This document shows, in pieces, positions 29,019 to 52,565 of a DNA stretch of 64,000 bases. This stretch comes from Celeribacter indicus. GTDB taxonomy: Bacteria > Pseudomonadota > Alphaproteobacteria > Rhodobacterales > Rhodobacteraceae. Location: NCBI RefSeq assembly GCF_000819565.1, contig NZ_CP004393.1:2294001-2358000 (forward strand), written 5' to 3'. The first letter of the stretch is position 1. Every line of letters starts with the position of its first letter. The position numbers were made by a program, and so were the translations under genes. A model generated the notes under the pieces. The model was not told where the DNA came from, ran no database searches, and worked only from the letters and a program-made list of their open reading frames with translations.

Positions 29019-30017
29019 TCATTCCGCAAGCGGCTGATCGAAGCTGGCCGCATATGACAGGGGTTTGCGCTGCGAGACCGGCACGCGCAGTGTATCGGGC
29101 AGGTTGCCGAAACCGATCAGCGTGACGATCAGTTCGCTCTCTGGCAGACCGATCAGGCGGCGGAGCTCGCGGTCGCGTCCCTTGCACTCCGACCAGTTGA
29201 GCATGACCGCACCAAGTCCTTCGGCATGAAGCCCGTAGACGAAGCTCATGGCGAACAGACCGCCATCGATCCAGCCCTGGTAGCGCTCCGTCGCCTGCTC
29301 CCAGTGCGCCAGGTCGGAGGTGATGACCGCCACGCCGCCAAGCTGGTCTCCGAAGCCGCGATTGCCGGACTGCAATGCGAGGATGCGGGCACAGGCGTCC
29401 GGCCGGGTCCAGATGCGGGCGCGGCAGGTTTGGCGATTGCAGGAGGACGGCGATTGCTGGGCTACCTGCACCGCGCGTTCTATGGAATCGGCGGGGACGG
29501 GGCCGGGCGCATAGTTGCGGATGGAGTGGCGGGCCTCGGCAAAGCTCAGGAAGTCCATCCTGCCGCGGGCCCGGATGTCTTCGGCGCTCACCTCTTCGCT
29601 GCCGCCGCGCAGCCCGTTGCGTTCGAGCGCTGCATATCCCTCCACCACCTCCGTCAGGCGGCTCAGGTCCAGTTCGGCGCCCGCGTTGTGTCGCAGGTAG
29701 CTTTCCAGCGTGCGCAGCGCGATTTCAGTCGTGGCGTCGGGTCCGAAGCTCGCCAGATAGGTGTCGACATCCTCGGCGAGTTGCTGTGCCCGGTCCAGCC
29801 CCCGGCCCTGCACCGTATCACGAAGCGACATGCCGTATTCCAGGAAATGCAGACCGATGGCAATGCGCGCCCGCAGGTTTTCCCGCGTCTTGGCCGCATC
29901 GGTAAAGGACGCGCGCCAGAACCGGCCTGCGTCGTACAGGTTGTTGCCAATCAGTTCCGTAAGAAGGCGTAAGCGCTCGCGAAAGGGCGGTCGGCGTTCG
30001 GGAAAGGTCCGGGGCAT
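29019..30017 (-). CDS. Nitroreductase family protein with N-terminal helical extension
   Basis: A 332-residue protein. The C-terminal half from about residue 160 is nitroreductase-like: FAEARHSIRNYAPGPVP, VAQQSPSSCNRQTCRARIW, and ELIVTLIGFGNLPD, with FMN-binding arginine and serine positions visible. The first 150 residues are mostly helical and not typical of nitroreductases. Flavin-dependent reduction or dehydrogenation is expected; a role in thioamide, ring or cofactor chemistry of the adjacent catabolic island is only a guess. The ATG at 30017 follows ACGGAGT; an earlier ATG at 30140 would lie in the promoter region. Divergent from the racemase. Confidence 0.82.
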   Translation of the reverse strand: MPRTFPERRPPFRERLRLLTELIGNNLYDAGRFWRASFTDAAKTRENLRARIAIGLHFLEYGMSLRDTVQGRGLDRAQQLAEDVDTYLASFGPDATTEIALRTLESYLRHNAGAELDLSRLTEVVEGYAALERNGLRGGSEEVSAEDIRARGRMDFLSFAEARHSIRNYAPGPVPADSIERAVQVAQQSPSSCNRQTCRARIWTRPDACARILALQSGNRGFGDQLGGVAVITSDLAHWEQATERYQGWIDGGLFAMSFVYGLHAEGLGAVMLNWSECKGRDRELRRLIGLPESELIVTLIGFGNLPDTLRVPVSQRKPLSYAASFDQPLAE

Positions 30018-30321
30018 GGTTGAGACTCCGTTCTGATATGAGGCGGAGTCTGTGAATTGTTCAGCGTACTCGCAAGAGAGCGGCAAAGGCCGGATAGGTG
30101 GCAGCCTTGTGCAGTCGTATTTTATGGCTGAATTCATCATTTTGAAAATAAAAGTTAAAATTGCGTACCCCTATCCGAAAGGATTGGTCTTCGGATCAAT
30201 TCCGTTCCTGGAATGCTCCGTAACAGTCGCGAACCTATTCGCGAAGTGCCTTTCTAACAGGCGCGTCGGGATGACAGCCTTTGATCATCTACCAACCCAA
30301 TGTTTCGAGAGGGGGTCGGGA
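30018..30321. other. Divergent regulatory region at the left edge of the catabolic island
   Basis: A 304-base interval between divergent genes, with an AT-rich core at about 30115-30165 that contrasts with the surrounding DNA. It holds a minus-strand promoter candidate and two inverted repeats: ATCCGAA/TTCGGAT (30173-30179 and 30190-30196, 10-base spacer) and ATTCC/GGAAT (30199-30203 and 30210-30214). These could be regulator sites for the racemase operon. No + strand promoter with good spacing was identified. Confidence 0.45.
30119..30146 (-). promoter_or_regulatory. Candidate promoter of the nitroreductase-like gene
   Basis: On the minus strand TTCAAA (30146-30141), 16-base spacer, TAAAAT (30124-30119). 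The -10 is a near-consensus match; the start codon lies about 100 bases downstream. Confidence 0.35.
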
Positions 30322-31086
30322 ATGGAACGTCAGGTTCATGTTCGTGTCGTGTCGCCAATTACCACGCTTGGTTTTCGCCGAAAGGACACACTCAAGAGCC
30401 TCGAGGCGCCGGGGCTGACGGTTTCGGCCACGCAGATTTCCAGGGGACCGGGGTCGATCGAAAGCGAATACGAAACCGCGATGGCGGTTCCGGACACTGT
30501 GGTCCGGATCGTCGAGGCCGAGCGCGAAGGGGTGGACGCCTGTATCATCGACTGCATGGGCGATCCCGGTCTGCGCGCCGCACGGGAGGCGGTGACCATT
30601 CCGGTACTGGGCCCCTGTCAGACCGGCCTGCATGTGGCGGCGATGCTGGGACAGAAGTTTTCGGTCCTCACTGTGCTGCCGCGCCTGATCCCGCAGTTCG
30701 AAAACGCTGCGGCCTTGGCGGGTCTCCCGTCGCGCCTGGCCTCGGTGCGATCTCTCGACATTCCCGTGCTGTCGCTGGAAGACGATCTCGCCGCCACGCA
30801 ATCGGCGCTGGTGGATGAGGCGCAGCGGGCGGTGGAGCAGGACGGGGCACATGCGGTGGTCTTCGGCTGCACCGGCCTTATGGGCTGTGCGGCCGGGTTG
30901 CGGGCCGGACTGCTCGCGCGGGGGATAGACATTCCGGTGATCGACCCGATCCCGACGGCAGTGAACATCGCCGTGGCGCTGGTGCGCAGCGATCTCAGTC
31001 ATTCGACCCTGACATTCCCGCTGCCGCCGGTCAAGCCGATGCCGGGCTACGACATGCCCGATCTGCATACGAAAGCGGCGGAGTGA
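30322..31086 (+). CDS. Asp/Glu/hydantoin racemase family protein
   Basis: A 254-residue two-domain racemase-fold enzyme. The two catalytic-type cysteines are in IIDCMGDPGLRAAR (Cys78) and VFGCTGLMGCA (Cys183), the arrangement of cofactor-independent hydantoin and aspartate racemases. It would invert the alpha carbon of a hydantoin or amino-acid-like intermediate. The ATG at 30322 follows GAGAGGGGGTCGGGA; the frame is open from 30052, but that extension is AT-rich and lacks family similarity. It is the first gene of a + strand operon with an ABC importer, a hydantoinase-like protein and two DUF917 proteins. Confidence 0.88.
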   Translation: MERQVHVRVVSPITTLGFRRKDTLKSLEAPGLTVSATQISRGPGSIESEYETAMAVPDTVVRIVEAEREGVDACIIDCMGDPGLRAAREAVTIPVLGPCQTGLHVAAMLGQKFSVLTVLPRLIPQFENAAALAGLPSRLASVRSLDIPVLSLEDDLAATQSALVDEAQRAVEQDGAHAVVFGCTGLMGCAAGLRAGLLARGIDIPVIDPIPTAVNIAVALVRSDLSHSTLTFPLPPVKPMPGYDMPDLHTKAAE

Positions 31087-31090
31087 TGCG

Positions 31091-31993
31091 ATGGCGGAAT
31101 TGACGGCGGATCGGGTGTGGATGCGTCAGCGGCCGGCGTGGTTGCTGCCGAACATGTGGTGGCTGGTGGTGCCCGCGATCCTTTTCATCGTACTGTTCTT
31201 CCTGATACCGGTCCTGTCGCTCTTCGCATCGAGCTTTGACGAGGCCTCGCCCGGCGTCCTCACCTTTCAGGGACGGCTGAGTTGGGATAATTACGAGCGG
31301 ATCTTCACCCGCCCGCTCTATTACACCGCGATCTTTCGGTCGGTCTGGATCGGGATGGCGGTGTCCCTGATCTGTCTGGTGGTCGGTTACCCGCTCGCCT
31401 TCGTCATCGCCCGAAGCATGCGGCCCGGCGTCGTGACGCTGCTGACCATCCTGGTGCTTGCCTCGATGCAACTCGATATGGTGATCCGGCTCTATGGCAT
31501 GATGGTGTTGATGGGCGACCGGGGGCTGATCAACTCGGGCCTTTTGGCGCTGGGGCTGATATCGGAGCCATTGCCGCTGATGTACAATGCCTTCGGGGTG
31601 ATCCTGGGGCTGGTACAGGTGACCTTGCCTTATATGATCTTGTCTCTGATCGGCACGATCAGGTCGATCGACCCGGCGCTCGAGGAGGCTGCACGCAGCC
31701 TCGGCTCTTCCCGCTGGCATGTGATGCGCACGATCACCTGGCCGCTGTCGCTGCCCGGCGTCTATGCGGGAACGCTGCTGGTCTTCGCGCTGGCGATCTC
31801 GTCCTACGTGGTGCCCGCGCTGATGGGGGGCTGGAAGGTCATCACCCTGCCGATCCACATCTATCAGCAGATCGCGGAGGTCGGGCGCTGGCAGTTCGGC
31901 GCGGCGGTGGCGGTTGTCCTGTTCCTGACATCGCTGTTCGCCATGGCGCTTTACATCCTCGCGCTGCGCCGCAATGCCGGAGGTCGCGTGTGA
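31091..31993 (+). CDS. ABC transporter permease (PotB-like)
   Basis: Inner-membrane permease of 300 residues with six hydrophobic segments (the first at about 25-50, LVVPAILFIVLFFLIPVLSLF) and the EAA loop IDPALEEAARSLGSSRWHVM near residue 200, which contacts the ATPase. It is most like the polyamine/putrescine type (PotB) permeases. It begins five bases after the racemase and overlaps the second permease (TGATG). Confidence 0.9.
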   Translation: MAELTADRVWMRQRPAWLLPNMWWLVVPAILFIVLFFLIPVLSLFASSFDEASPGVLTFQGRLSWDNYERIFTRPLYYTAIFRSVWIGMAVSLICLVVGYPLAFVIARSMRPGVVTLLTILVLASMQLDMVIRLYGMMVLMGDRGLINSGLLALGLISEPLPLMYNAFGVILGLVQVTLPYMILSLIGTIRSIDPALEEAARSLGSSRWHVMRTITWPLSLPGVYAGTLLVFALAISSYVVPALMGGWKVITLPIHIYQQIAEVGRWQFGAAVAVVLFLTSLFAMALYILALRRNAGGRV

Positions 31994-32799
31994 TGAACGA
32001 GATCAATCCCGTTCCGTTTGCTTTTCGGCTGCTCGCCGGGCTCGCGCTTCTGGTCCTGCTCGTGCCGGTGGCCATCGTAGTGATGGCAGGGCTGAACTCC
32101 GGAGAATATCTGACTTTCCCGCCCGAGGGGATCTCGTTGCGCTGGGTGAAAGGATTCTTTGTCTCGCCCACATTCCTTCCGGCGTTCAAGCTGTCCTTCG
32201 GGCTGGCGCTGGTCACGACGCTGGTATCCACTGTGCTGGGCACCTTGGCGGCGGTGTTCCTGACCCGCACGAGGAGCAGGGCGCGGGAACTCCTCCGGGG
32301 TCTGTTCATCCTGCCCGTCATCCTGCCTGGAGTGGTTTTGGGGCTGGCACTCTATGTGTTCTACATCTGGACGGATATCGGCCTTGCCCGTAGCCTGACT
32401 GGCCTGCTGATCGGTCACGTCCTGGTCACGATGCCTTTCGTGATTGCCACGGTCACCGCATCGCTGGTGGATTTCGATCTTTCCATCGAAGAGGCGGCGC
32501 GCGCCTTGGGTGCCACTGCGGCGCAGGCATTCGTCAAGGTCACCCTGCCTAACATCGCGTCCGGCATCACCGCCGGCACGATCTTCGCCTTCATCGTCAG
32601 CTTCGGCCAGTTCGAACTGACGCTGTTCCTGTCCACTCCCGATCTGCAAACCCTGCCGATCGCCATGTACACCTCGCTGCGCTACGCCTTCGAACCTACG
32701 GCCGCGGCGGCGGGGATCTTTGCAATCTTTCTCGTCACCGTTTCGACATTGCTCACGTCCCGCCTCGTCAACCTCAAGAAAATGTTGCGCCGGCGTTGA
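31993..32799 (+). CDS. ABC transporter permease (PotC-like)
   Basis: A 268-residue second permease of the same importer. It has six membrane segments (LLAGLALLVLLVPVAIVVMAG first) and the EAA motif DLSIEEAARALGATAAQAFVKV. It also carries the PotC-type FVISFGQFELTLFL-like segment (FIVSFGQFELTLFLS). The ATG at 31993 overlaps the preceding stop; a GTG one codon earlier is also in frame. Confidence 0.9.
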   Translation: MNEINPVPFAFRLLAGLALLVLLVPVAIVVMAGLNSGEYLTFPPEGISLRWVKGFFVSPTFLPAFKLSFGLALVTTLVSTVLGTLAAVFLTRTRSRARELLRGLFILPVILPGVVLGLALYVFYIWTDIGLARSLTGLLIGHVLVTMPFVIATVTASLVDFDLSIEEAARALGATAAQAFVKVTLPNIASGITAGTIFAFIVSFGQFELTLFLSTPDLQTLPIAMYTSLRYAFEPTAAAAGIFAIFLVTVSTLLTSRLVNLKKMLRRR

Positions 32800-32829
32800 A
32801 CCGGCCTTTTCCAGCAAGGAGAGTGAACC

Positions 32830-33930
32830 ATGACGATGTCCAACAAGGGCCTCAGCCGACGTAGCCTGCTCAGGACCGGCGCCGCCGCCGCCGGGGTCAG
32901 TCTGTTCAATATCAATCACGCCTGGTCGCAGGATGTGACCTATGACGGCGACGTCTTTGACGCGGGCGGCGCCGTGCTGAACCTGGCCGAATGGGGCGGC
33001 TATTGGCAGGAGACGCAGAACGCGCTGCTGCTCGATCGATTCCAGAAGGACTTCAACTGCCAGATCCGCTATGACAGCACCTTTCCCTGGTTTCCGAAAT
33101 TCGTCGCTGGCGGGGCGGAGCATCCGCCCGTCGATCTGGCCAACTGGAACATGCCTGAAATGTTCAAGACCTCCGCGGCGGGCGACTATTTCATGGATGT
33201 GGAAGAGATCAAGGCAAACGTGCCGAATACCGCCAAGCTGTGGGACTTCGCCTCGCAGACGGGGGTCGGCGTGACGTGGGCTTTCTCGCGCTATTGCTAC
33301 GTCTATCGGACGGACACGGGCGTGACGCCGGCGGGTTTCAAGGATTTTTGGCTGCAGGACTACGCCGGAAAGCGCGGCACCTACATCACCTCCAACACGT
33401 TGCAGATGATGTTCTTCATGGCGGCCGCGGCAGCCTTCGGTGAGGGCGAGACGGATTTCGCGGCCGGATATCAGGCGATGCGCGATGCCATGCCGATGAA
33501 GATTTCCGATTTCACGGGCAACATGGCGACGCTGGTGGAGCGCGGCGAGGTCGAGATCGCGGTGCAGTCCGATGCCGAGGCTCTGTTGCAGAAGGAAAAG
33601 GGCGTTCCGGTCGATCTCTATTATTGGGATGAGTACAAGGGCATCCTGACGCAGACCAAGACGATCAGCAAATATGCCGATCCGATGAGCAAGAAGCTCA
33701 GCTTTGCGCTGCTCGATCGCTACCTCGACGCCGACTACCAGACCGCCTTTGCCGACACGTTCTGGATGCGTCCCTCGAACCGGGAGGCCGTGATCCCCGA
33801 GAAGATGGCCGCGCTTGGCGTGGTCAACAGTGCGGATGCGACCGACGGTCTGCATATCCCCGACTGGCAGGCGTACCTGGACGAAGAAATCGACATCGTC
33901 GAAACCGTGAACGAGATCTTCGGATCGTGA
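32830..33930 (+). CDS. ABC transporter substrate-binding protein (polyamine/PotD type)
   Basis: Periplasmic binding protein of 366 residues. The N-terminus has a twin-arginine-like motif SRRSLLRTG (residues 9-17) followed by a hydrophobic stretch and cleavage near HAWSQD, so Tat export is likely. The mature part resembles extracellular solute-binding family 8 (PotD-like): LNLAEWGGYWQETQNALLL, and WMRPSNREAVIPEKMA near the C-terminus. The ligand cannot be read from sequence; the operon suggests a hydantoin-like or small nitrogenous compound. AAGGAGAG precedes the ATG. Confidence 0.88.
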   Translation: MTMSNKGLSRRSLLRTGAAAAGVSLFNINHAWSQDVTYDGDVFDAGGAVLNLAEWGGYWQETQNALLLDRFQKDFNCQIRYDSTFPWFPKFVAGGAEHPPVDLANWNMPEMFKTSAAGDYFMDVEEIKANVPNTAKLWDFASQTGVGVTWAFSRYCYVYRTDTGVTPAGFKDFWLQDYAGKRGTYITSNTLQMMFFMAAAAAFGEGETDFAAGYQAMRDAMPMKISDFTGNMATLVERGEVEIAVQSDAEALLQKEKGVPVDLYYWDEYKGILTQTKTISKYADPMSKKLSFALLDRYLDADYQTAFADTFWMRPSNREAVIPEKMAALGVVNSADATDGLHIPDWQAYLDEEIDIVETVNEIFGS

Positions 33931-33933
33931 TTC

Positions 33934-34003: not shown

Positions 34004-35077
34004 GTGTCCGACATCCGGCTCGAACAACTGACCAAGACCTATGCGGAGGCCGTTGCGGTCGAAGCCGTAACGCTGCATATCGAGGAGGGCGAGTTCTATG
34101 CGCTGCTCGGTCCCTCGGGCTGCGGCAAATCGACGACCCTGCGGATGGTGGCAGGCTTTGTCAAACCCTCCGCCGGGCGGATCGTCATTGGCGGCGAGGA
34201 TGTGACGGCGCTGCCTCCCGAAAAGCGCGATGTCGGTATTGTGTTCCAGAATTATGCGATTTTCCCGCATATGACCGTGGCCGAGAACATCGCCTTCGGT
34301 CTGAAGCTGCGCAAGCGGTCGCGGATGGAGATCGACACGGCGGTGAAGGCCGCGGTGGCGCAGGTGGGCCTCACGGGGTTCGAGGATCGTTACCAGCGGA
34401 ACTTGTCGGGTGGGCAGCAGCAGCGCGTGGCGCTGGCGCGAGTCCTGGTGACGAGGCCGCGCATCCTGCTTCTGGACGAGCCGCTCTCGGCACTCGACAA
34501 GGCGCTGCGGGAAGAAATGAAGTTCTGGATAAAGAGCCTTCAGCAAGAACTTGGTATCACGACGATTTATGTCACTCACGATCAGGACGAGGCACTTACG
34601 ATGTCGGATCGGATCGGGGTGATGCGTGGGGGCCGTGTCGAGCAAAGCGGTACGCCGACACAAATATACGAGGATCCGTCCACCCTGTTCGTCACCACCT
34701 TTATCGGACAGTCCAATGTTCTGAATGGCACCTGCCTCGAAGCCGCCGATGGCCGGGCGTCCCTGCAACTCGCGGATCAGGTTCTGATGGCGGGTGTCAG
34801 GCATCACATTCCGAAGGGAACCGCGGTCCGGCTGGTGATCCGTCCGGAGAATGTATTGATGGGGGCCGAGGCCGAGGAGGCGGGTGTGCCGGTGATGCAG
34901 GCGCGCGTCCTGGGGGAGACCTATCAGGGGGCGACGGTGCGCTACCGCCTCGATCTGGCGGGGCAGGAGGTGGTGGCCGAGCGCCAGAACCAGGTGCACC
35001 TGGTCCGGTGGCAGCCCGGCGAGTTTGTGAATATCGGCTGGTCGCCCGTCCGCGCGCGTCTTCTGCCGGCCGGTTGA
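34004..35077 (+). CDS. ABC transporter ATP-binding protein (PotA-like)
   Basis: ATPase subunit of the importer, 357 residues. It has Walker A GPSGCGKST (36-44), signature LSGGQQQRVALAR, Walker B LLLDEPLSALD, and a C-terminal TOBE domain (about 270-350) as in PotA/UgpC-type proteins. The start is GTG at 34004, which fits the family N-terminus SDIRLEQLTKTY. It follows the hairpin and precedes the hydantoinase-like gene by 42 bases. Confidence 0.93.
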   Translation: MSDIRLEQLTKTYAEAVAVEAVTLHIEEGEFYALLGPSGCGKSTTLRMVAGFVKPSAGRIVIGGEDVTALPPEKRDVGIVFQNYAIFPHMTVAENIAFGLKLRKRSRMEIDTAVKAAVAQVGLTGFEDRYQRNLSGGQQQRVALARVLVTRPRILLLDEPLSALDKALREEMKFWIKSLQQELGITTIYVTHDQDEALTMSDRIGVMRGGRVEQSGTPTQIYEDPSTLFVTTFIGQSNVLNGTCLEAADGRASLQLADQVLMAGVRHHIPKGTAVRLVIRPENVLMGAEAEEAGVPVMQARVLGETYQGATVRYRLDLAGQEVVAERQNQVHLVRWQPGEFVNIGWSPVRARLLPAG

Positions 35078-35119: not shown

Positions 35120-36673
35120 ATGCGTATCGGCATTGATGTGGGCGGCACCAATACGGATGCCGTCATTCTTGAGGGAGACCGGGTGATTGCGGCCTGCAAA
35201 TCTCCGACCACCGAGGACGTCAGCTCGGGCATTTCCGCCGCGCTTGCCACCGTCCTGGACGAAAGCGGGGTCCCCGCGGCGGCAGTCGACGCCGTGATGA
35301 TCGGTACAACGCATTTCACCAATGCGGTGGTCGAGCGGCGGCGCCTGTTGCAGGTTGCGGCTGTCCGTATCGGTCTTCCTGCAACGCGCGGGGTGCCGCC
35401 GATGACCGACTGGCCCGCCGATCTGGCCGGTGCGCTGGGGCGTCATACCTACATGTTACGCGGCGGGCATGAGTTCGACGGCCGCGAAATCGCTCCGCTC
35501 GACGAAATGGGCGTGTTGGAGGTGGCGAAGGAGATCAGGGCCAAGGGGCTGCGCAGCGCTGCGATCACCTCGGTCTTTTCGCCCGTGACAGCGGTGATGG
35601 AATTGCGCGCGGCCGAAATCCTCCGTGAGGAATGTCCCGGCATCGCAGTGTCGCTCAGCCATGAGATCGGACGCGTCGGATTTCTCGAGCGTGAGAATGC
35701 CGCCATCATGAATGCCTGTCTGGCCGAGCTTTCGGTCAAGGTTGTCGCGAGTTTCCGCACCGCGCTACGTGGCAAGGGGATCACCGCGCCTTTCTTCATC
35801 AGCCAGAACGACGGCACTCTCATGACGCCAGATCATGTGGAACGTTATCCGGTTCTGACCTTTGCCTCCGGGCCCACCAATTCGATGCGCGGCGCGGCAC
35901 GTCTGGCGGGCATCGGCGATGCGATGGTCGTCGATGTCGGAGGCACGACCTCCGATGTAGGCATGCTGATGCAAGGCTTCCCGCGCGAAAGCGCCGTGGC
36001 CGTGGATATCGGCGGGGTGCGGACCAATTTCCGCATGCCCGACGTTTTGGCCATCGGCCTTGGCGGAGGCTCCCGTGTGCGCGAGCAGGGGATGCGGATC
36101 GGGCCCGATTCCGTGGGATACGAGATCACGAAAGACGCGCGGGTCTTCGGCGGGGACACCCTGACGACGACAGATATCGTGGTGGCCGCGGGGTTGGCCA
36201 TTATCGGGGATGCCTCCCGCGTTGCAGATATCCCCGCCGCGACCATCGACTCCGCGCTCGCTACCATGCATCGCATGGTGGACGAAGCGGTGGATCGCAT
36301 GAAGACGTCCGCCGACAGGCTTCCGGTCATTCTTGTGGGGGGCGGTGCAGTGCTGATCTCGCGCGATCTGCCCTCGGCGAGCGAGGTGATCCGTCCGGAA
36401 AATTCCGGTGTCGCCAATGCCATCGGCGCGGCGATCGCACAAGTTGGCGGCGAGGTGGACCGCATCTACGCCATGGAGGGCCGCTCCCGCGAGGAGGTGC
36501 TCGACGAGGCGAGGGCCGAAGCTTCGGCCAACGCGGTGGCGGCAGGCGCGGCCGAGGGCAGCGTCAAGATCATGGATATCGAAGAGGTGCCGCTGGCTTA
36601 TCTGCCGGGCTCGGCCACCCGTATCCGGGTCAAGGCGGTGGGCGACCTGACGATGAAGGAGGCCGCGGAATGA
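35120..36673 (+). CDS. Hydantoinase/oxoprolinase (HyuA-like) protein, module 1
   Basis: A 517-residue ASKHA-fold protein with a phosphate-binding start GIDVGGTNTDAV (4-15), GTTHFTNAVVERR, ASGPTNSMRGAARL and VVDVGGTTSDVG. HyuA/OplA enzymes use ATP to activate and open cyclic amides such as N-methylhydantoin or 5-oxoproline. It is shorter than classical HyuA (about 690) and has no adjacent HyuB. Instead its stop overlaps the first DUF917 gene (ATGA at 36670-36673), suggesting the two products act as one complex. A paralogue is at 44124-45680. Confidence 0.88.
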   Translation: MRIGIDVGGTNTDAVILEGDRVIAACKSPTTEDVSSGISAALATVLDESGVPAAAVDAVMIGTTHFTNAVVERRRLLQVAAVRIGLPATRGVPPMTDWPADLAGALGRHTYMLRGGHEFDGREIAPLDEMGVLEVAKEIRAKGLRSAAITSVFSPVTAVMELRAAEILREECPGIAVSLSHEIGRVGFLERENAAIMNACLAELSVKVVASFRTALRGKGITAPFFISQNDGTLMTPDHVERYPVLTFASGPTNSMRGAARLAGIGDAMVVDVGGTTSDVGMLMQGFPRESAVAVDIGGVRTNFRMPDVLAIGLGGGSRVREQGMRIGPDSVGYEITKDARVFGGDTLTTTDIVVAAGLAIIGDASRVADIPAATIDSALATMHRMVDEAVDRMKTSADRLPVILVGGGAVLISRDLPSASEVIRPENSGVANAIGAAIAQVGGEVDRIYAMEGRSREEVLDEARAEASANAVAAGAAEGSVKIMDIEEVPLAYLPGSATRIRVKAVGDLTMKEAAE

Positions 36674-37761: not shown

Positions 37762-38843
37762 GGCTGCTGCAACCGGAGGATCTGGAGGATATCGCTGTCG
37801 GCGCCGCCGTGCTGGGCACGGGCGGCGGGGGCGATCCGTATATCGGCAAGCTGCTGGCGCGCGGCGCCATCCAAAGTCACGGGCCGGTGCGGCTTGTTTC
37901 ACTGGAAGAACTGCAAGACGACGCGCGTGTCATCACCTGCGGCGCCATGGGGGCTCCGACGATCGTGCTCGAAAAGGTGCCCTCCGGGGACGAGATGCTG
38001 ATGGCGCTGCGCCATTACGAAGAGGTGACCGGCGACCGGGTGACGGCGATCATGCCGTTCGAGGCGGGCGGGCTGAACTCCTGCCTGCCCATCGTTCTTG
38101 CCGCGCAGACCGGTCTGCCGCTGGTGGATGCCGACGGCATGGGCCGGGCCTTTCCGCAGCTCGAGATGGAGACCTTCAACGTTTATGGTATCGCCGCCGC
38201 GCCGATGGCGATGGCCGACGAGAAAGGCAATCTCGCCATGGTCAGAACCCGAAGCGCGAGCAGGGCAGAGTTCATCGCCCGCGGCCTGTGCATCCGCATG
38301 GGCGGGCAGGCCAGCCTCGTGAACTATCCGATGGACGGGGCCACGGCGAAGCGCGTGTCGGTGCCGGCAACCATGTCCTTGGCACAGGATATCGGAAAAG
38401 TGCTGCGTCGCGCCCGCAAGGAAAAGACCGACCCGCTGTCGGATCTCATCGTATTCCTGCGCACCACACATTACGGCCATGCCGAGCGTTTGGGATCGGG
38501 TAAGGTGACGGATATCGAACGCAGGGTTGAGAACGGCTGGTCCGTGGGGATCGTCACCATCTCGCCGTTCGGGGAGGGAATGCCCTACCGCATTCGCATC
38601 CAGAACGAAAATCTGGTGGTCGAGCGGGGCAGCGACATTCTGGCCGTGGTGCCTGACCTGATCTGCGTGCTGGACGTGGACACTGCCGAGGCCATTCCGA
38701 CAGAACGGCTGCGCTATGGTCAGAGGGTCGAGATTCTTGGGGTTCGCGTCCCGCCGATCATGCGCAGTCCCGCGGCGCTCAAGGTGTTCGGCCCCGCCGC
38801 CTTCGGCTTGTCCGCCAAGTATCAACCACTGGGAGGGGGCTGA
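37758..38843 (+). CDS. DUF917 family protein, copy 2
   Basis: A 361-residue paralogue of the preceding gene with the same landmarks: [12 protein letters not shown] (20-31), [34 protein letters not shown] and [27 protein letters not shown]. Clear divergence between the tandem copies, yet conservation of all glycine and Asp motifs in both, suggests two active and possibly heteromeric subunits. Its start overlaps copy 1 (ATGA), and its last 22 bases overlap the end of the convergent LuxR-type gene. Confidence 0.87.
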
Positions 38844-44123: not shown

Positions 44124-45680
44124 TCATACGACGGGGTCTGAATCGGCCCTTTGCACGGAAATTGAGCCGATTGCACGCACGCGGACACGCCGCGCATCGC
44201 CGGGCAGATAACTGACCGGGATATCTTCGCGCTCGACCACCCTGAGCGTCGCCGGATCGGCGCCGCTTTCCACCGCGCGACGGCGCGCCAGTGCCTCGCA
44301 ATGCTCCAGCGCCTCCTGCCGCGTCATGCCGGTGACGATCTGGTCTACCTCGCCAGAAACCATGGCAGAGGCGGCACCGACTGCGTTCGCCACATCCCCG
44401 TTTTCCACGTGAACGACCATGGAGACGCCGCTCATGGATTCAGGCACCAGAAAGGCGCCGCCGCCGACGGCGATCACGGTGACCGGATCGGGAGAGGTCT
44501 TCATCCGGTCCACCGTTTCCTCGATCCGACGACCGACCTCGCGACGCACGCTGTCCACCAGTTCGGTGCCCAGCGCCGTGGTGCGCGACACGTCGCCCAA
44601 TGCGATCGTGCCGGCGCGTGCGGCGATATCGGTCAGTGTCAGGGTTTCTCCCCCGAAGACGAGCGCCTCTTCAGGTAAGCGGTAACCCACCGATTTCGGA
44701 CCGATCCTGCTGCCGTCCGGTGCCACGACAGTGCCTCCGCCGATGCCGATGGAGATGAGATCGGGCATCTGAAACAGAGTGCGAACACCGCCGATTTCGA
44801 CCACGTTGTTCGCCTCGCGTGGAAAGCCATTCAGCAGATGACCGACATCGCTGGTGGTGCCTCCCACATCGACCACGATCGCGTTGTCGATGCCCGACAG
44901 GCTCGCGGCACCCCGCATGGAATTCGTGGGCCCCGAGGCGAAGCAGAAAACAGGATAGCGCGCGGCGCGTCCGGCTTTCATCACCGTGCCATCGTTCTGG
45001 GTCAGATAGAGCGGCGCATCGAGCCCGCTGCGGGCCAGCGCCTCCTCGAAGGCCTCCACTGTGTCCTTTCCGTGCCGGGAGAGGGCCGCGTTTAGCAAGG
45101 CCACGTTTTCGCGTTCGAGCAGGCCGATACGCCCCAGTTCGAACGAGCAGGTGACAGCGATCTCGGGGGCAACGCGGCCGAGAATATCCCGTGCCTGTCG
45201 CTCGAAAGCGTTGTTCAACGGGGAAAAGACAGATGTGATTCCCGCGGCGGTGATGCCGGCGGTCCGCATCTCGCGCGCGGCGACCTCGATGGCGGCCACA
45301 TCGAGGTCCACGATGGGACGCCCGTCATACTCGTGCCCGCCTTCGATCAGAAAGCACATAGGGTCGATTGCCTCCCGCAAATCGTCGGGCCAATCCTCAC
45401 CGGGAGTGAGACTCGCGCAGGACGGCAGGCAGATGCGCAACGCGCCCACGCGGCTCAACCCGCGGCGCTCTATCACCGCATTGGTAAAATGCGTTGTCCC
45501 GAGCATCAACGCGTCTATTCCGTCGAGCGGTGCCTTCTTCCGCAGCGCGACGATTGCGTTTAGAACGCCGCTCGTCACGTCCGTCGTGGTCGGCGTCTTG
45601 ACCGCGGCGATCACGCGGTTTTCCTCGATCAGCACGGCATCCGTGTTGGTGCCGCCGACGTCCAGTCCGATTTTCTTCAT
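44124..45680 (-). CDS. Hydantoinase/oxoprolinase (HyuA-like) protein, module 2
   Basis: A 518-residue paralogue of the module 1 HyuA-like protein. It has IGLDVGGTNTDAVLI (4-18), GTTHFTNAVIERR, FASGPTNSMRGAASLSG and VVDVGGTTSDVG. The near-identical motif set but different overall sequence points to an older duplication and a related ring-opening substrate. No HyuB is present. Its start overlaps the stop of the DUF917 gene upstream (45677-45680), so DUF917 and HyuA are again coupled, in reversed order compared with module 1. Confidence 0.88.
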   Translation of the reverse strand: MKKIGLDVGGTNTDAVLIEENRVIAAVKTPTTTDVTSGVLNAIVALRKKAPLDGIDALMLGTTHFTNAVIERRGLSRVGALRICLPSCASLTPGEDWPDDLREAIDPMCFLIEGGHEYDGRPIVDLDVAAIEVAAREMRTAGITAAGITSVFSPLNNAFERQARDILGRVAPEIAVTCSFELGRIGLLERENVALLNAALSRHGKDTVEAFEEALARSGLDAPLYLTQNDGTVMKAGRAARYPVFCFASGPTNSMRGAASLSGIDNAIVVDVGGTTSDVGHLLNGFPREANNVVEIGGVRTLFQMPDLISIGIGGGTVVAPDGSRIGPKSVGYRLPEEALVFGGETLTLTDIAARAGTIALGDVSRTTALGTELVDSVRREVGRRIEETVDRMKTSPDPVTVIAVGGGAFLVPESMSGVSMVVHVENGDVANAVGAASAMVSGEVDQIVTGMTRQEALEHCEALARRRAVESGADPATLRVVEREDIPVSYLPGDARRVRVRAIGSISVQRADSDPVV

Positions 45681-46750
45681 GCGAACACCGATATGAAATC
45701 CATGTCATGCCCGAAACAACGAGGCCCGACGCAGGCGAGCCCGTCGGGCGAGGTGAAAACTGGTGGGGCCGGCAGCGCGATGAGGGAAACGCGCTGGCCG
45801 TAGCGCAGCATTTCGGTCCCGATCGCTTCGCCGCTGACGCTGTCCAGAAGGCAGATGAGATCCGGCACGGAGACAAGCGGTGTGCCGTCGCAGGTCGCCA
45901 GCGTATATTCGTTCTGGAAATCGACTGAGAGCCTTCTGCCCTTGTCGCCCTGCAGCCCCTCGAGCTCGACACGCCCCCGCAGGAATCCCTCGGTGGTGTT
46001 ACGTTCGACGTCCCACACGCGCCCGGTGAACATCAGCAGGCCGTTCTCCTGTTCCACAACCGCGGCGACAGGATCCTCATGTGCCGCGCGTGCGGCCGCG
46101 ATGGCGCGGCCGATGCGCACGGCCTTCGCGACCGTGCCGCGGATGCCCCAGGTCTTGACCTCGGCGCCCGACCGGGGCGCCTTGCAGGTGGCGGCGATGG
46201 AACCGACCTCGACACAGGCTTTGCGCGACAGCCGCTCCATCCATTTCCAGGAGGCGGCGCGTTCTACGATGACGGCGTTGTCACGGATATCCTGAAGCGT
46301 CAATGGGAACATCTGAAGTTTCCCGACCGAAAAACTGGTCATTTGCGCTTCGGGAAAAGCGCGGCCCATGCTGTCGGCATCGATCACCGGCAAATCCATC
46401 AGTGCGGCGGCGGTAAACGGCTGAAGAGCGTTGCCGCCGCCGATCTCGAGCGCCATGATCGCGTCGAAGCGGCGTCCCAGAAAACGCTCCATCATGCGGA
46501 TCGCACCGACCTGTGTGGCGGGATCGGCAATCCGTTCCAGCCCGACGACCGGCGCACCCATGTTGGACACGACGGCCACCATTGCGTCGTCGTCAAGCTC
46601 TTCCGCGCCAATGACGTTCACCCTGTGGCCCTGCCTGTAGAGCTTTCTCAGGTTCAGAAAGCCGTGATAGGGGCTGCCGCCGCCGCCCGTGCCCAACACC
46701 CAGGCGCCGGTGGCGAGCGGCGCGATGTCATCCTCTGGAAATTCCCGCAT
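45677..46750 (-). CDS. DUF917 family protein, copy 3
   Basis: A 357-residue third DUF917 protein. It shows GTGGGGSPYHG (20-30, Ser replacing the Asp of copies 1 and 2), VIDADSMGRAFPEAQMTSF, VDFQNEYTLATCDG and VPDLICLLDSVSGEAIGTEML. First gene of the minus-strand group, preceded by AAAGGACATTGC before the ATG at 46750. A frame extension to 46936 has Arg-rich shadow composition. It diverges from the peptide-type importer at 47005, so the 254-base gap is a shared control region. Confidence 0.86.
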   Translation of the reverse strand: MREFPEDDIAPLATGAWVLGTGGGGSPYHGFLNLRKLYRQGHRVNVIGAEELDDDAMVAVVSNMGAPVVGLERIADPATQVGAIRMMERFLGRRFDAIMALEIGGGNALQPFTAAALMDLPVIDADSMGRAFPEAQMTSFSVGKLQMFPLTLQDIRDNAVIVERAASWKWMERLSRKACVEVGSIAATCKAPRSGAEVKTWGIRGTVAKAVRIGRAIAAARAAHEDPVAAVVEQENGLLMFTGRVWDVERNTTEGFLRGRVELEGLQGDKGRRLSVDFQNEYTLATCDGTPLVSVPDLICLLDSVSGEAIGTEMLRYGQRVSLIALPAPPVFTSPDGLACVGPRCFGHDMDFISVFA

Positions 46751-47004
46751 GCAATGTCCTTTGATGCGCTGTCGCGGTTGTCGGACGAAAGCTATCCTGC
46801 GCCGCCGGCTGCGGACTAGTAAGGGCTCGCACGTATTTTGCAGGTGCAGCGAGCTGATAATATGAAGTGCAATATCTGCTCCTTGCCGGCGATGCCGTAA
46901 CAGGGGCAATCGGCCAATAACGGTGCCGGCGAGCAAAGATCGCGAAACCGTCTAAACAATGCGGCGGCCCCGCAGGTTGCACGCGCTTCTGACAGGGAAT
47001 TCAA
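46751..47004. promoter_or_regulatory. Shared divergent control region of module 2
   Basis: A 254-base gap between the DUF917 copy 3 (-) and the importer binding protein (+). A weak + strand promoter candidate is TTGCAG (46838-46843), 17 bases, TATGAA (46861-46866). The AT-rich patch at about 46830-46875 marks the likely regulatory core. No minus-strand promoter with proper spacing stood out, and no long palindrome was found. Confidence 0.35.
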
Positions 47005-48618
47005 ATGTCCAGACTTTCGCGCCGACAGCTTCTCATGACCAGTGCCGGACTCGGCCTTCTGTCGGGATTCGGCGGGATGCCTATGGGAGCCTTTGCGCAG
47101 GAGCCGCGAACCCTGCGGCTTGCGGACGGCAATATCGGTCAGGCAGATCCTCACAAGCCGGTCGATTTTCCCGGCTCTATCCTCATGTTCAACCTTTACG
47201 ACTTCCTCGTGCGTCCGATGCCCGGTGGCGAGCTTGAGCCTTCGGTTGCCGAGGCCTGGGAGATTTCGGAGGATGGCACGGTCTACATCTTCCACATCCG
47301 GGATGGCATTACCTTCCATGACGGAAGCCCGCTGACGGCGGAGGATGTGGTGTTTTCCGCCAACCGCCTGCTGACGATGAAGCGCGGCTATTCCTACCTT
47401 TTCTCATCGGTAGACAAGGTCGAAGAGGTGGATGGCGCTGCCGTCTTTACGCTGAACGAACCGTTTGCACCTTTCCTTGCCGCGCTGGTGCGTTTGGCCA
47501 TCGTCAACAAGAGACTGGTCATGGCCAACCTGGCCGAGGGCGGCTTCGGCGACCTGGGCGACTATGGCGAGGCCTTCCTCAGCACCAGCGATGCCGGTTC
47601 CGGACCTTATATGATCGACGAGCACGATCCCCAGACCGGCACGGTGATGGCGATCAACACCGATTATTTCGGCGGCTTCGCCGAAAATCCGCCCGAGGTG
47701 ATCCGCTCGCGCTTCGGTGTCGAGGCGGTGACGGTGCGTCAGCTCATGCCGCGCAGAGAGATCGACCTGACACGCCTGCCGCTGCCACCCGAAATCGTCA
47801 CCGCGCTCGCGAGAGAAGAGGGTGTTTCTATCGGGCAGGACCGCAAGCCCGGCATGTTTCACTTCAAAATGAACACACAGAAGGCGCCCCTCGACGACGT
47901 CAACGTTCGCAAGGCAATCGCACATATCTTCGACTATGATCAGATTTACGGTCTGCTCAATGTTGCGGGCAATCAGCAGGGTATTCCGGTGCGCGGCCCC
48001 ATTCCCACGGGCGTGCCCGGTTTTGATCCCGATGTGTCGCTGCTCAAGAAGGATGCGGAGGCTGCCAAGGCCGCGATGGCCGCATCGAAATATGCCGGGC
48101 AGAACCTGGAACTCGATCTGGTCTGGTTCAAGGGGATGGCGCTGCAGGAGAAATACGCGCTGCTGCTTCAGGCGAACCTGGCCGAGTTGGGGATCAGCCT
48201 CAACATCAGCTCCGCGCCTTGGCCGCAGATCGTCGAGATGGCGACCAGTCCCGAGGCCTCTCCGCATCTGGCCTGCGTGTCGACCTCGATGTCGACAACG
48301 GATGTGGATTCGATGATCTGGGGCGAATACCACAGCTCAGCTGCAGGAACATACCTGTCGATGCATTGGCTTCAGATGCCCGAAATCGACGCCATGCTGG
48401 AGGAAGGGCGGCAATTGACTGACCCGGCTGCGCGTGAGACCGTATACAGGGAATTGGCTGCCAAAATTCGCGAACAATATCCGTCGGTTTTCCTTTATCA
48501 GCCGACGGATCTCGTGGCCTATCAGGAATACCTGAAGGTGCCCGGCTTCGGGGATCCGGCCCAATCGGTGCCGATCATGGCGGGCAACTATCAGTACCAC
48601 CGCATGAGCATGGCGTAG
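47005..48618 (+). CDS. ABC transporter substrate-binding protein (family 5, oligopeptide/dipeptide type)
   Basis: A 537-residue periplasmic binding protein. The N-terminus has a twin-arginine-like motif SRRQLLM (5-11) and cleavage near AFAQEP. SBP family 5 landmarks follow: PSVAEAWEISEDGTVYIFHIRDG-type stretch (about 78-100), ITFHDGSPLTAEDVVFSANRL and VRKAIAHIFDYDQI. Family 5 proteins bind peptides, opines, nickel chelates, glycosides or other amide compounds. Given the neighbours, a hydantoin-like or amide ligand is plausible. AGGGAATT precedes the ATG. A 140-base gap separates it from the permease genes. Confidence 0.9.
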   Translation: MSRLSRRQLLMTSAGLGLLSGFGGMPMGAFAQEPRTLRLADGNIGQADPHKPVDFPGSILMFNLYDFLVRPMPGGELEPSVAEAWEISEDGTVYIFHIRDGITFHDGSPLTAEDVVFSANRLLTMKRGYSYLFSSVDKVEEVDGAAVFTLNEPFAPFLAALVRLAIVNKRLVMANLAEGGFGDLGDYGEAFLSTSDAGSGPYMIDEHDPQTGTVMAINTDYFGGFAENPPEVIRSRFGVEAVTVRQLMPRREIDLTRLPLPPEIVTALAREEGVSIGQDRKPGMFHFKMNTQKAPLDDVNVRKAIAHIFDYDQIYGLLNVAGNQQGIPVRGPIPTGVPGFDPDVSLLKKDAEAAKAAMAASKYAGQNLELDLVWFKGMALQEKYALLLQANLAELGISLNISSAPWPQIVEMATSPEASPHLACVSTSMSTTDVDSMIWGEYHSSAAGTYLSMHWLQMPEIDAMLEEGRQLTDPAARETVYRELAAKIREQYPSVFLYQPTDLVAYQEYLKVPGFGDPAQSVPIMAGNYQYHRMSMA

Positions 48619-48757: not shown

Positions 48758-49771
48758 ATGGCGCGATTTTTGGGCGTGCGGCTCCTCAGCGGACTGGTCG
48801 TGATCGTCGGGGTCTCGATCTTCATCTTCGTGATTGCCCGGATCGTTCCGGGCGATCCGGCGCGGCTGGCGCTGGGGCCGGAGGCCTCAGCCGAGCAGGT
48901 GGAGGCGATGCGCATCCAGATGGGATTCGACCGTCCCTTGGCGGAACAATACCTGAATTTCGTTGTCGGGGCGCTGCGGTTCGATTTCGGCCGGTCGCTC
49001 TATACCGACAATCCGGTGGCCATGGACGTGGCGAAGACTTTTCCGGCGACCCTGGAACTGGTGCTCTACGCAGGTATCGGCATGACGCTTATCGGCGGTG
49101 CAATGGGTATCGCCAGCGCGCATTTCAAGGATCGCTGGCCAGACAACGCGGCACGGGTCTTCTCGCTCTTGGCCGTAGCGATGCCGAATTTCGTCTGGGC
49201 GATCTTCATGATGCTGCTTCTGGCCTTCTGGGCGCAGATATTGCCGCTGACGGGGCGATTGTCGGAAAGCCTCGCGCCGCCCGCCGCCATCACTGGCCTT
49301 TATACGATCGACGCGGTGCTGCAGGGACAATGGCGGGTATTTGCGGACGCGCTGGCGCATCTGATCCTGCCGGCAACCGCTTTGGCGCTTCCTGGCCTCG
49401 CGCAGATATCGCGGTTGACCCGCACCAATATGGTGGACAGCTATGACCGGCCTTTCGTTGAGTTCAGCCGGGCCTATGGTCTGTCCGAACGGTCGGTCGC
49501 CCTGAAATGGGCACTCCGGCCGGCGATCATTCCCACTCTCATGATCATGGGAATGCAGATCGTGGCACTCCTGGGTAATGCTTTCATCGTCGAGACGATT
49601 TTCATCTGGCCGGGCATGGCGAAATATGGCGTCAACGCAATCCTGCGCAAGGATCTGAACGCCATGGTGGCGGTCGTGATGCTGATCTCCGTGTTCTTCG
49701 TCCTCGTGAACATGCTGATCGATACGGTGGTGTCCTTTATCGACCCCAAAATAAGGCTCAAGACGAAATGA
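48758..49771 (+). CDS. ABC transporter permease (DppB/OppB type)
   Basis: A 337-residue permease with the DppB-type start (RLLSGLVVIVGVSIFIFVIARIVPGDPARLALGPEA region), six membrane segments and the C-terminal loop EFSRAYGLSERSVALKWALR. AAAGGAAAAAAGG precedes the ATG. It overlaps the next permease by four bases. Confidence 0.93.
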   Translation: MARFLGVRLLSGLVVIVGVSIFIFVIARIVPGDPARLALGPEASAEQVEAMRIQMGFDRPLAEQYLNFVVGALRFDFGRSLYTDNPVAMDVAKTFPATLELVLYAGIGMTLIGGAMGIASAHFKDRWPDNAARVFSLLAVAMPNFVWAIFMMLLLAFWAQILPLTGRLSESLAPPAAITGLYTIDAVLQGQWRVFADALAHLILPATALALPGLAQISRLTRTNMVDSYDRPFVEFSRAYGLSERSVALKWALRPAIIPTLMIMGMQIVALLGNAFIVETIFIWPGMAKYGVNAILRKDLNAMVAVVMLISVFFVLVNMLIDTVVSFIDPKIRLKTK

Positions 49772-50622
49772 TGGTCAGAAACGGCGACCGGCTGCGCGCG
49801 TGGCGACGCTTTGCACGCAACAAGCTCTCTGTGCTTGGCATGGTGCTGATCTTTCTCGTGGTGATCTCTGCAGTCTTCGCGCCCGTGCTGGCACCCTATC
49901 CCGAACATGCGGGCGTCGCGGTGAATTTCATCGACGCGAACCGGTCGCCGGACGCGACCTATTGGCTGGGAACTGACAGTGTCGGGCGGGATGTGCTGAG
50001 CCGGATCATGTTTGCCTTTCGCAACTCGCTGATGCTGGGGGCGGTCGTGGTGACGCTGGCGATCACCGTCGGCACGGCGGTGGGCATGTGCGCGGCCTAT
50101 TTCGGCGGCAGGATCGAGGTGGTGCTGATGCGGATCACCGACATTTTCCTAGCGATCCCTTCGCTGGTTCTCGCAATGGCAATCCTCGGCCTCGCCCAGC
50201 CCTCCCAGTTCATGGCGATGGTAGCGATGGCCATCGCATGGTGGCCGTGGCATGCACGGCTCGTCTATGGGGTCGTCCGGTCGCTCCGCGCCGAAGGCTT
50301 CGTGGTCGCAGCAGAGGTTCTCGGTGCGTCTCCCCTGCGCATCATGCTGAGCGAGCTTTTGCCGAACTGCGCACCCAACCTCTTTACCAAGGCCAGCCTC
50401 GACATGGGATTCGTCATCCTGCTTGGTGCCGCGCTCAGCTTTCTCGGCATGGGGGCGCCGCCGCCGACACCCGATCTGGGCACCATGGTATCGGAAGGGG
50501 CTCAGTACCTGCCTGATATCTGGTGGCTCTCGGTCACGGCGGGACTGGCGATCTTCGTCCTGGTGCTCGGTTTCAACCTTGTGGCCGATGGTTTGCGCGA
50601 CCTTTTCGACATCGTGGGATAG
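49768..50622 (+). CDS. ABC transporter permease (DppC/OppC type)
   Basis: A 284-residue second permease. The N-terminal ARNKLSVLGMVLIFLVVISAVFAPVLAPY is the OppC_N domain. WLGTDSVGRDVLSRIMF and EVLGASPLRIMLSELLPNC (EAA loop) complete the signature. Stop and next start are three bases apart. Confidence 0.93.
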   Translation: MMVRNGDRLRAWRRFARNKLSVLGMVLIFLVVISAVFAPVLAPYPEHAGVAVNFIDANRSPDATYWLGTDSVGRDVLSRIMFAFRNSLMLGAVVVTLAITVGTAVGMCAAYFGGRIEVVLMRITDIFLAIPSLVLAMAILGLAQPSQFMAMVAMAIAWWPWHARLVYGVVRSLRAEGFVVAAEVLGASPLRIMLSELLPNCAPNLFTKASLDMGFVILLGAALSFLGMGAPPPTPDLGTMVSEGAQYLPDIWWLSVTAGLAIFVLVLGFNLVADGLRDLFDIVG

Positions 50623-50625
50623 GAC

Positions 50626-51600
50626 ATGACCGACACCGATCTCCTTGCCCTTTCCGATCTGGATCTGACCTTCAAGACGCTCGACGGCCCGGTGGATGTG
50701 CTGCGCGGCGTATCGCTGCGCATACGCGAGCACGAGCGCGTGGCGCTGGTGGGCGAATCCGGCTCGGGCAAATCGGTCACGGCGCGCGCCATCATGGGGT
50801 TGTTCCCGCGCAAGCGCATCCGGGTCGCAGGTGACATCACATTCGCCGGAAAATCGCTGCTGGGCGAAAGCGAGGCGGCGCTGCGCCGACGTCGCGGACG
50901 TGAGATCACCATGATCTTCCAGGATCCGATGGCAGCGCTCAATCCGGTTTTCACGATCCGCACGCAGTTTCGCGCCATTGTTGATCGGCTGGAGCAACGG
51001 ATGAGCGACGGCGAGGCGGAAACACGGATGCAGAATGCTTTGGCCGATGTGTCCATCGCCGATCCCGAGCGTGTGCTGTCGAGCTATTCCTTCCAGCTCA
51101 GCGGCGGGCTGAATCAGCGGGTGATGATTGCCATGGCCCTGGTCAGCCGGCCCAAACTCCTGATCGCGGACGAGCCCGGCACCGCGCTCGACGTGACGGT
51201 GCAGCAGCAGACCCTGCATATCATGGGGCGGCTCAGCGAAAGTTTCGGGACGGCGATCCTGTTCATTTCCCACAATCTCGGCGTGGTGCGCAATTTTGCC
51301 GACAGGGTCTGTGTGATGTATGCCGGACGCATCGTCGAGGAGGCGCCGACCGCGGAGCTTTTCGCGGATCCGCGCCATCCGTATACGCGTGCGTTGCTGG
51401 CTTCGGTTCCGCGTTTGTCGTCCCCAGATCTGCCGATCCCGATCGAAGGCAGCGTGCCGGGGATGATGGACATGCCGTTGGGCTGCGCCTTCGCGCCGCG
51501 ATGCCCCCATGCCACCGACGCCTGCGCCGCGCCGGTGCCGTTTGCCAAGGCCGGACCTGACCGCAGGGTCGCCTGTATCCATCCGGAGAAGGTGACATGA
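50626..51600 (+). CDS. ABC transporter ATP-binding protein (DppD type)
   Basis: A 324-residue ATPase with Walker A GESGSGKS (about 43-50), Q-loop MIFQDPMAALNPVF, signature LSGGLNQRVMIAMAL and Walker B LLIADEPGTALDVTV. A C-terminal oligopeptide-transporter domain has a Cys cluster (CAFAPRCPHATDAC) that in relatives may hold an Fe-S cluster. Its stop overlaps the second ATPase gene. Confidence 0.94.
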   Translation: MTDTDLLALSDLDLTFKTLDGPVDVLRGVSLRIREHERVALVGESGSGKSVTARAIMGLFPRKRIRVAGDITFAGKSLLGESEAALRRRRGREITMIFQDPMAALNPVFTIRTQFRAIVDRLEQRMSDGEAETRMQNALADVSIADPERVLSSYSFQLSGGLNQRVMIAMALVSRPKLLIADEPGTALDVTVQQQTLHIMGRLSESFGTAILFISHNLGVVRNFADRVCVMYAGRIVEEAPTAELFADPRHPYTRALLASVPRLSSPDLPIPIEGSVPGMMDMPLGCAFAPRCPHATDACAAPVPFAKAGPDRRVACIHPEKVT

Positions 51601-52565
51601 GTCGTCCGTTTCTGGAAATCGCGGGGGCGCGTAAGCAATTCTTCGTCGGAGATACGGTGGTGAACGCTCTAAACGGTGTCGACCTCCGGGTCGAGCGCGG
51701 CGAGACGCTGGCCATCGTCGGCGAAAGCGGATCTGGCAAGACGACGCTGGCCAATCTTATCCTGGGGGTGGAAAAGCCCACGGACGGCGCGCTCTTCCTG
51801 AGCGGAGCGCGCCTGGAGGAGGCGCGCGACACCACCCAGCGGCGCCGTATCGGCCTGGTACAGCAGAATCCCTATTCCACGCTGAACCCGCGCAAGTCCA
51901 TCGGACAGGCGATAGGGCTTCCGCTGGCGGTGCATGGAATAGGCCGCCGGGCGGAACGGCGCCGTATCATCTCTGAAAAGCTCGAGCGCGTGGGTCTGAA
52001 CAGCGATTTGCAGGACCGCCGTCCGCTTGCCCTGTCCGGCGGCCAGCGCCAGCGTGTCGCCATCGCCCGAGCGCTGACGACCGAGCCTGATCTGCTGGTG
52101 CTTGACGAACCGACGTCGGCGCTGGACGTGTCGGTGCAGGCGCATATCCTGAGGCTTCTGAGCGATCTGCAAAAGGATCTTGGGCTCACCTATGTGTTCA
52201 TCACCCACGATCTGAGCGTGGTCCGGGTGCTGGCAAGTCGCGTGGCGGTGATGTACCGCGGCCGGATCGTCGAGGAAGGGGCGGTCGAGAAGGTTTTCTT
52301 TTCGCCGCGACACCGGTATACTCAGCAGCTTCTGGCCTCGATCCCGACGGTTTCGGAGGAGGAGGACGCGGTGCGGCCCGGCTGGCCGTGGCACAGTGAT
52401 GTCGACAGCACCGCGATCGTTACCGATGGCTGTCCCTTCCATCCGCGCTGTCCCTTTGCACAGCCTGGCTGTTTCTCCGGTGTGCCGGACCTGAAAGGTG
52501 CGCGCGATCACCGACACGCGTGCCTTAACCCGCTTGTCGCGCCCGAGACGTTCGGTGCCGCCTGA
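51597..52565 (+). CDS. ABC transporter ATP-binding protein (DppF type)
   Basis: A 322-residue ATPase with Walker A GESGSGKTT (about 42-50), VQQNPYSTLNPRKSI, signature LSGGQRQRVAIARAL and Walker B LLVLDEPTSALDVSV. The C-terminal CPFHPRCPFAQPGC cysteine cluster matches the DppD partner. Last gene of the peptide-type importer and of the island; the next gene is convergent. Confidence 0.94.
   Translation: MSRPFLEIAGARKQFFVGDTVVNALNGVDLRVERGETLAIVGESGSGKTTLANLILGVEKPTDGALFLSGARLEEARDTTQRRRIGLVQQNPYSTLNPRKSIGQAIGLPLAVHGIGRRAERRRIISEKLERVGLNSDLQDRRPLALSGGQRQRVAIARALTTEPDLLVLDEPTSALDVSVQAHILRLLSDLQKDLGLTYVFITHDLSVVRVLASRVAVMYRGRIVEEGAVEKVFFSPRHRYTQQLLASIPTVSEEEDAVRPGWPWHSDVDSTAIVTDGCPFHPRCPFAQPGCFSGVPDLKGARDHRHACLNPLVAPETFGAA

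Follow-up and report, generated by a model that had tools for sequence, protein, structure and literature searches.

What might two sets of genes for short HyuA proteins and DUF917 proteins, with no HyuB beside them, do for Celeribacter indicus? The question is raised by an insertion of 24.3 kb within a stretch of 64,000 nucleotides that we analyzed (contig NZ_CP004393.1, positions 2,294,001 to 2,358,000; hereafter the window), part of a 4.5-Mb contig in a 4.97-Mb genome of 6 contigs. We scanned 19 island proteins with Pfam, and also used NCBIfam for the gene list. The original prediction for this locus had named two HyuA proteins, three DUF917 proteins, a racemase, a monooxygenase, two ATP-binding cassette (ABC) importers and two LuxR regulators, and Pfam found all of them; it had also stated that HyuB was lacking, and indeed the window contains no Hydantoinase_B match, the four HyuB (PF02538) matches of the genome all lying elsewhere. 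The island that it described is thus real in its gene content, but two features had been missed: a nitroreductase-family gene at 29019-30140 lies inside the insertion, and the LuxR regulator at 43101-44039 is an AroM-LuxR fusion, which together with its predicted operator is a new element of the island.

We favor, with moderate confidence, the reading that the island is an acquired insertion with two ATP-driven, ring-opening modules built on HyuA and DUF917, the second of which is controlled by a sensor derived from a dead racemase. From the sequences, ring opening is our best reading of the island.

Short HyuA proteins and their DUF917 neighbors

DUF917 is present in 35 of 385 Alphaproteobacteria genomes. 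Counting a match of at least 170 bits as strong, we obtained 36 strong matches (three of them the island's own) and 13 weak ones. For 32 of the 36 strong matches, the fetched stretch also contains a short HyuA; of the other four, one (L092) is close to the end of its contig and three (L099, L103 and L111) belong to a single family. Such a comparison of neighborhoods across genomes had been suggested along with the original prediction, and it supports the proposal that HyuA and DUF917 form a unit without HyuB. 

Because these loci had been chosen by their DUF917 genes, two less biased views were needed. In the genome of C. indicus itself, four long HyuA matches each lie 0.6-0.8 kb from one of the four HyuB matches; both short HyuA are in the island. 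The second view came from at least 26 loci picked by the AroM-LuxR fusion protein alone, the only pattern used being in its helix-turn-helix (HTH). DUF917 without HyuB was found in 22 of the 26 loci listed, and 20 of these 22 contain a short HyuA; the other two are L144, with a HyuA fragment at a contig edge, and L131, where the contig ends. Three further loci (L130, L149 and L151) carry HyuA-HyuB without DUF917, and L148, a 3-kb contig, carries neither. In L130 and L149, a single protein of 1267 or 1269 residues combines Hydant_A_N, Hydantoinase_A, Hydant_A_C and Hydantoinase_B; for L151, the Pfam check was made on HyuB only. That operons which are otherwise alike have either HyuA-HyuB or a short HyuA with DUF917 is our strongest argument for DUF917 as a stand-in for HyuB. 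Together, these data indicate that HyuA and DUF917 are very likely partners.

The proteins and the arrangement of their genes are consistent with this conclusion. HyuA1 (517 aa, 35120-36673, + strand) and HyuA2 (518 aa, 44124-45680, - strand) both match PF05378 (Hydant_A_N) and PF01968 (Hydantoinase_A), with 173-176 of the 291 positions of PF01968 covered, and thus keep the ATPase part; the motifs DVGGTNTD, DVGGTTSD and GGG, which we take to be the phosphate-binding motifs of HyuA, are present in both. Neither short HyuA matches PF19278 (Hydant_A_C) at E <= 0.001, a domain present in the HyuA-HyuB proteins of L130 and L149, and HyuA1 has no HyuB match. In the HyuA tree, a 100/100 branch separates short (64 rows) from long (7 rows) forms. 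Within the island, each of three junctions is a 4-base overlap: DUF917a (36670-37761, + strand) starts inside the end of HyuA1, DUF917b (37758-38843, + strand) inside the end of DUF917a, and HyuA2 inside the end of DUF917c (45677-46750, - strand; the start at 46750 is deduced from relatives). All three DUF917 proteins match S-Me-THD. For 54 of 65 HyuA open reading frames shorter than 600 aa, there is either an overlap or a gap no larger than 10 bp.

Nor is the arrangement peculiar to one genome. The gene order of module 1, from the racemase through two DUF917 genes to a LuxR gene, is repeated on plasmids of Aureimonas sp. AU20, Rhizobium leguminosarum and Aminobacter niigataensis, where the counterparts of DUF917a are 75-77% identical to it; the LuxR genes of these plasmids are 34-41% identical and share the strand of the module, whereas the one here is convergent. 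Pairs of short HyuA and DUF917 are also seen in Rhizobium plasmids, Bacillota, Actinomycetota and one haloarchaeon. The importer of such modules is exchangeable: NCS1 (cytosine-permease type) genes lie beside the pair in Nonomuraea (tblastn only), Parageobacillus, Planococcus and a Streptomycetaceae plasmid, and the Haloferax pair adjoins an ABC set that includes a binding protein of family 5. The NCS1 and hydantoin-racemase neighbors suggest that the substrates may be small heterocycles. In L099, an amidohydrolase gene lies beside the HyuA-less DUF917.

The AroM-LuxR fusion and its predicted operator

The regulator encoded at 43101-44039 (- strand) seems to be a worn-out enzyme of the racemase fold fused to a DNA-binding part. 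It matches AroM (PF07302) at residues 5-215 (138.2 bits) and the GerE HTH (PF00196) at residues 251-304 (67.7 bits), and its AroM domain retains the racemase fold. Both cysteines at the racemase positions are absent from 36 of 36 complete fusions, whereas both are kept in 26 of 26 complete stand-alone AroM proteins; the fusion here has A98 and S187 at these positions, and the island's own racemase keeps both cysteines. In the tree, the AroM-LuxR fusions group in a single clade.

A conserved 18-bp dyad occurs in the intergenic regions between DUF917 and fusion genes, and the copy at 46819-46836 (no strand), between the divergent genes for DUF917c and the family-5 solute-binding protein (SBP5), is, judged by sequence, the likely operator of AroM-LuxR. 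We trained a matrix on nine sites of other loci, with the window excluded, although a half-site in the window had been spotted by eye before scoring. The top site in the window was 46819-46836, at 15.5 bits, with the runner-up at 10.4. Xaviernesmea oryzae (L128) has a site in the corresponding position that is identical in 17 of 18 bases. Dyads of at least 15 bits are present in 30 of 37 AroM-LuxR loci (21 of the 28 outside the training set, many of which nearly duplicate a training locus) and in 0 of 37 DUF917 loci without a fusion. The window's score was reached by 0 of 200 column-permuted matrices in the intergenic region. A degenerate pattern, composed after the site had been seen, gave one exact match in the genome (the 46819 site), none at one mismatch and 17 at two; the control pattern gave 50 matches.

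Some loci in these surveys deserve separate mention. L086 contains two AroM-LuxR fusions (5387-6298 and 12813-13727), which are interspersed with and flanked by genes for a stand-alone AroM, DUF1177 and a Dpp-type importer. In L151 and L152, the tblastn match of the fusion gene is split as if by a frameshift in otherwise ordinary operons, which could be an assembly error. Strong dyad matches also stand in L174, L194, L192, L198, L158 and others of L153-L206, whose LuxR proteins are of other kinds; the dyad might be used by a broader class of HTH.

The proposed pathway and its alternatives

Under the ring-opening reading, the island would have been acquired horizontally and would be catabolic, acting on cyclic amides or imides. 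In each module, the shortened HyuA kinase would use ATP to activate a ring carbonyl, and the co-translated DUF917 would replace the function of HyuB by hydrolyzing the activated ring. Module 1 would take up its substrate through a PotABCD-like importer and racemize it with the hydantoin-type racemase; module 2 would use a Dpp-type importer and add an FMN monooxygenase. The switch of module 2 would be a one-component regulator, a catalytically dead, racemase-fold AroM domain joined to a LuxR HTH, that binds a pathway substrate or intermediate and acts at the 18-bp dyad. We extend this only tentatively to the wider proposal that DUF917, although unrelated to HyuB, has replaced it to give a second type of ATP-dependent cyclic-amide hydrolase across bacteria and archaea, and that in Alphaproteobacteria AroM, as the isomerase of the pathway, was duplicated once, fused to a LuxR HTH and deprived of both cysteines to become a pseudoenzyme dedicated to sensing the pathway ligand at an 18-bp operator.

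Several observations weigh against these proposals. L099, L103 and L111 contain strong DUF917 matches with no HyuA in the stretch, and DUF917 may therefore work without HyuA; in addition, the Pfam scan of the island proteins found no carbamoylase. The dyad also reaches 15 bits in 13 of 54 loci that have only other LuxR proteins, and thus seems typical of this HTH class; its score in the window was reached in 2 of 60 random 64-kb sequences, and no site above 9.1 bits was found in L130 and L149, which are of the HyuA-HyuB type, or in L087. Concerning the regulator, the profile comparison reaches the first cysteine only (probability 63.5%), and the catalytic role of the two AroM cysteines is our assumption from the racemase family. 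Finally, no stand-alone AroM was found in the genome, and the sensor here would thus be without a sister enzyme. 

Some of these observations would fit HyuA and DUF917 being independent enzymes that act in turn on different intermediates. DUF917 stands without HyuA not only in the three loci of one family but also at 12 of the 13 weak matches, the thirteenth having a HyuA of 23% identity. However, the 4-base overlaps at three junctions, the close spacing of most short HyuA genes and the exchange of the pair with HyuA-HyuB make independence unlikely. We consider it very unlikely that the pair performs another ATP-dependent reaction of the superfamily, for example a carboxylation like that of acetone or acetophenone carboxylase: HyuA1 does score 78 bits with the acetophenone carboxylase gamma subunit, nearly the 85.3 bits that it scores with N-methylhydantoinase, but N-methylhydantoinase and caprolactamase are the top-scoring HyuA matches, and the genes nearby in relatives encode racemases, AroM, peptide or NCS1-type transporters and M20 enzymes. 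For the regulator, the low confidence of the structure model at the link (227-237) and at 152-168 leaves some room for a protein that binds DNA constitutively, or for a trigger enzyme with some other activity left. We regard either as unlikely, given that the fold is kept, that the G-x-x-P-R and GALD motifs are invariant across 13 fusions and that no complete fusion has either cysteine.

The original prediction had also seen a possible desulfurizing machine in the island. DUF917 would then strip sulfur or methanethiol, as in the breakdown of ergothioneine or S-methyl-ergothioneine, and the monooxygenase would act on another C-S bond. The Pfam family does bear the name S-Me-THD, and the best solved relative of the monooxygenase by PDB score is YtnJ/MoxC, which is presumably tied to the salvage of sulfur compounds. 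The island DUF917 proteins, however, score 82.1-115.6 bits against cut-offs of 440 (NF058529) and 450 (NF058532), while a thiohydantoin desulfurase elsewhere in the same genome, our control, scores 589.1 (cut-off 440). This control belongs to an ergothioneine-type locus (L124 6834-12030; C1 of the genome, at about 1.393-1.398 Mb) that also encodes a thiourocanate hydratase (1016 bits, cut-off 930), an ErtE-type amidohydrolase (577.5 bits, cut-off 520) and a TRAP binding protein; no thiourocanate hydratase is present among the 19 scanned island proteins. Desulfurase-type DUF917 proteins form their own branch, of length 3.5 (five rows in the tree, of which only L124 was checked with NCBIfam), and a HyuA match was found in 0 of 6 such loci (L121 gave no tblastn match of any kind). 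We conclude that thio-chemistry of the island is unlikely and that the desulfurizing scheme in full is quite unlikely. The accompanying remark, which denied a plain ergothioneine pathway, holds for the island; the genuine ergothioneine-type locus of this genome lies about 0.93 Mb away.

The insertion, its modules and known systems

The insertion (about 28453-52725, no strand) lies between genes for an M32 carboxypeptidase and an HD-domain protein. Both flank genes are present in 18 genomes of the same genus, and in all 18 the gap between them, computed by hand from the ends of matches, is 39-1847 bp, versus 24.3 kb here; one more, 85% complete, has neither flank gene. DUF917 has no match in 17 of 19 relatives from the genus and a distant one in two (57.2 and 62.5 bits). 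The wide gap here, the short gap in relatives and the lack of close DUF917 matches there therefore indicate an accessory insertion of about 24.3 kb. Its GC fraction (0.60-0.65 at 30-52 kb) is lower than that of the neighboring bins (0.66-0.70 at 14-30 kb, 0.66-0.68 at 52-58 kb); a second low-GC stretch of the window lies at 10-14 kb (0.61-0.64). The nitroreductase-family gene (29019-30140, - strand; PF00881, a partial match to the C-terminal part only), divergent from module 1, belongs to the insertion. At E <= 1e-30, 1 of 19 other same-genus genomes has such a gene (45% identity), on a different contig from its M32 gene; in R. leguminosarum (L013), a protein 48% identical is encoded in an equivalent divergent position, and Aminobacter (L014) gives a partial match.

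Module 1 (+ strand) begins with an Asp/Glu/hydantoin racemase, hydantoin/allantoin-like, at 30322-31086, which keeps the cysteine motifs DCMGDPG and GCTG and whose start is most likely 30322, judging from family length. It continues with two PotB/PotC-like ABC permeases (31091-32799), a putative substrate-binding protein of a PotABCD-like importer (32830-33930) and an ABC ATPase with a TOBE_2 domain (34004-35077), followed by HyuA1, DUF917a and DUF917b; the Pot names are our own labels. The putative binding protein has no Pfam match, but its relatives, among them L012 11540-12667, bear the annotation 'ABC transporter substrate-binding protein'. A convergent gene for a MalT-like LuxR regulator of 866 aa, assigned by Pfam/NCBIfam, follows at 38822-41422 (- strand).

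Module 2 (- strand) comprises DUF917c, HyuA2, the AroM-LuxR fusion and, at 41528-43006, an FMN-dependent, luciferase-like monooxygenase of the NtaA/DmoA subfamily (TIGR03860, 591.3 bits, cut-off 279.7). Divergent from it is a Dpp/Opp-type importer (+ strand, by Pfam) with SBP5 (47005-48618) and two permeases plus two ATPases (48758-52565). Relatives of the monooxygenase adjoin AroM-LuxR in L127, L128 and L130, with an FMN reductase next in L128. Among the matches listed, the fusion's nearest relatives are in L127 and L128 (58-59% identity), in both of which the monooxygenase is followed downstream by a HyuA-DUF917 set.

Should DUF917 take over from HyuB, short HyuA genes now labeled 'hydantoinase/oxoprolinase' would need a new chemistry. 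A regulator made from a dead enzyme would offer a practical handle, since its ligand should point to the pathway substrate; the pathway could thus be tested using a single purified protein plus a short DNA site.

Part of this picture is already known. The HyuA-DUF917 pairing is discernible in public annotation, and DUF917, AroM and hydantoin racemase are known near cyclodipeptide oxidases: the relevant part of a 2024 paper describes enrichment of PF01177, PF06032 and PF07302 in cyclodipeptide oxidase gene clusters and treats DUF917 and AroM proteins as lacking experimental characterization (PMC11055893). Like those clusters, the island combines a racemase with DUF917 and AroM and also has peptide transporters and a nitroreductase-family protein, but in addition it contains short HyuA and the AroM-LuxR fusion, which section 6 of that paper leaves unmentioned. 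PF19585 (CDOB) has no match among the 19 island proteins scanned, a set limited to the longer open reading frames. The island DUF917 proteins share the Pfam families PF06032/PF20906 with the S-methyl-thiohydantoin and thiohydantoin desulfurases (NF058532, NF058529), but differ in their far lower scores, their separate branch and the lack of an adjoining thiourocanate hydratase. With the HyuA-HyuB hydantoinases, 5-oxoprolinase and caprolactamase, the island HyuA proteins have the N-terminal and ATPase parts in common; here, however, DUF917 takes the place of HyuB and Hydant_A_C matches. Similarly, the regulator shares its domain with the AroM family (PF07302) but has lost both conserved cysteines and gained a LuxR HTH, and it shares the GerE HTH with LuxR/NarL-type regulators but carries a racemase-fold domain as its putative sensor.

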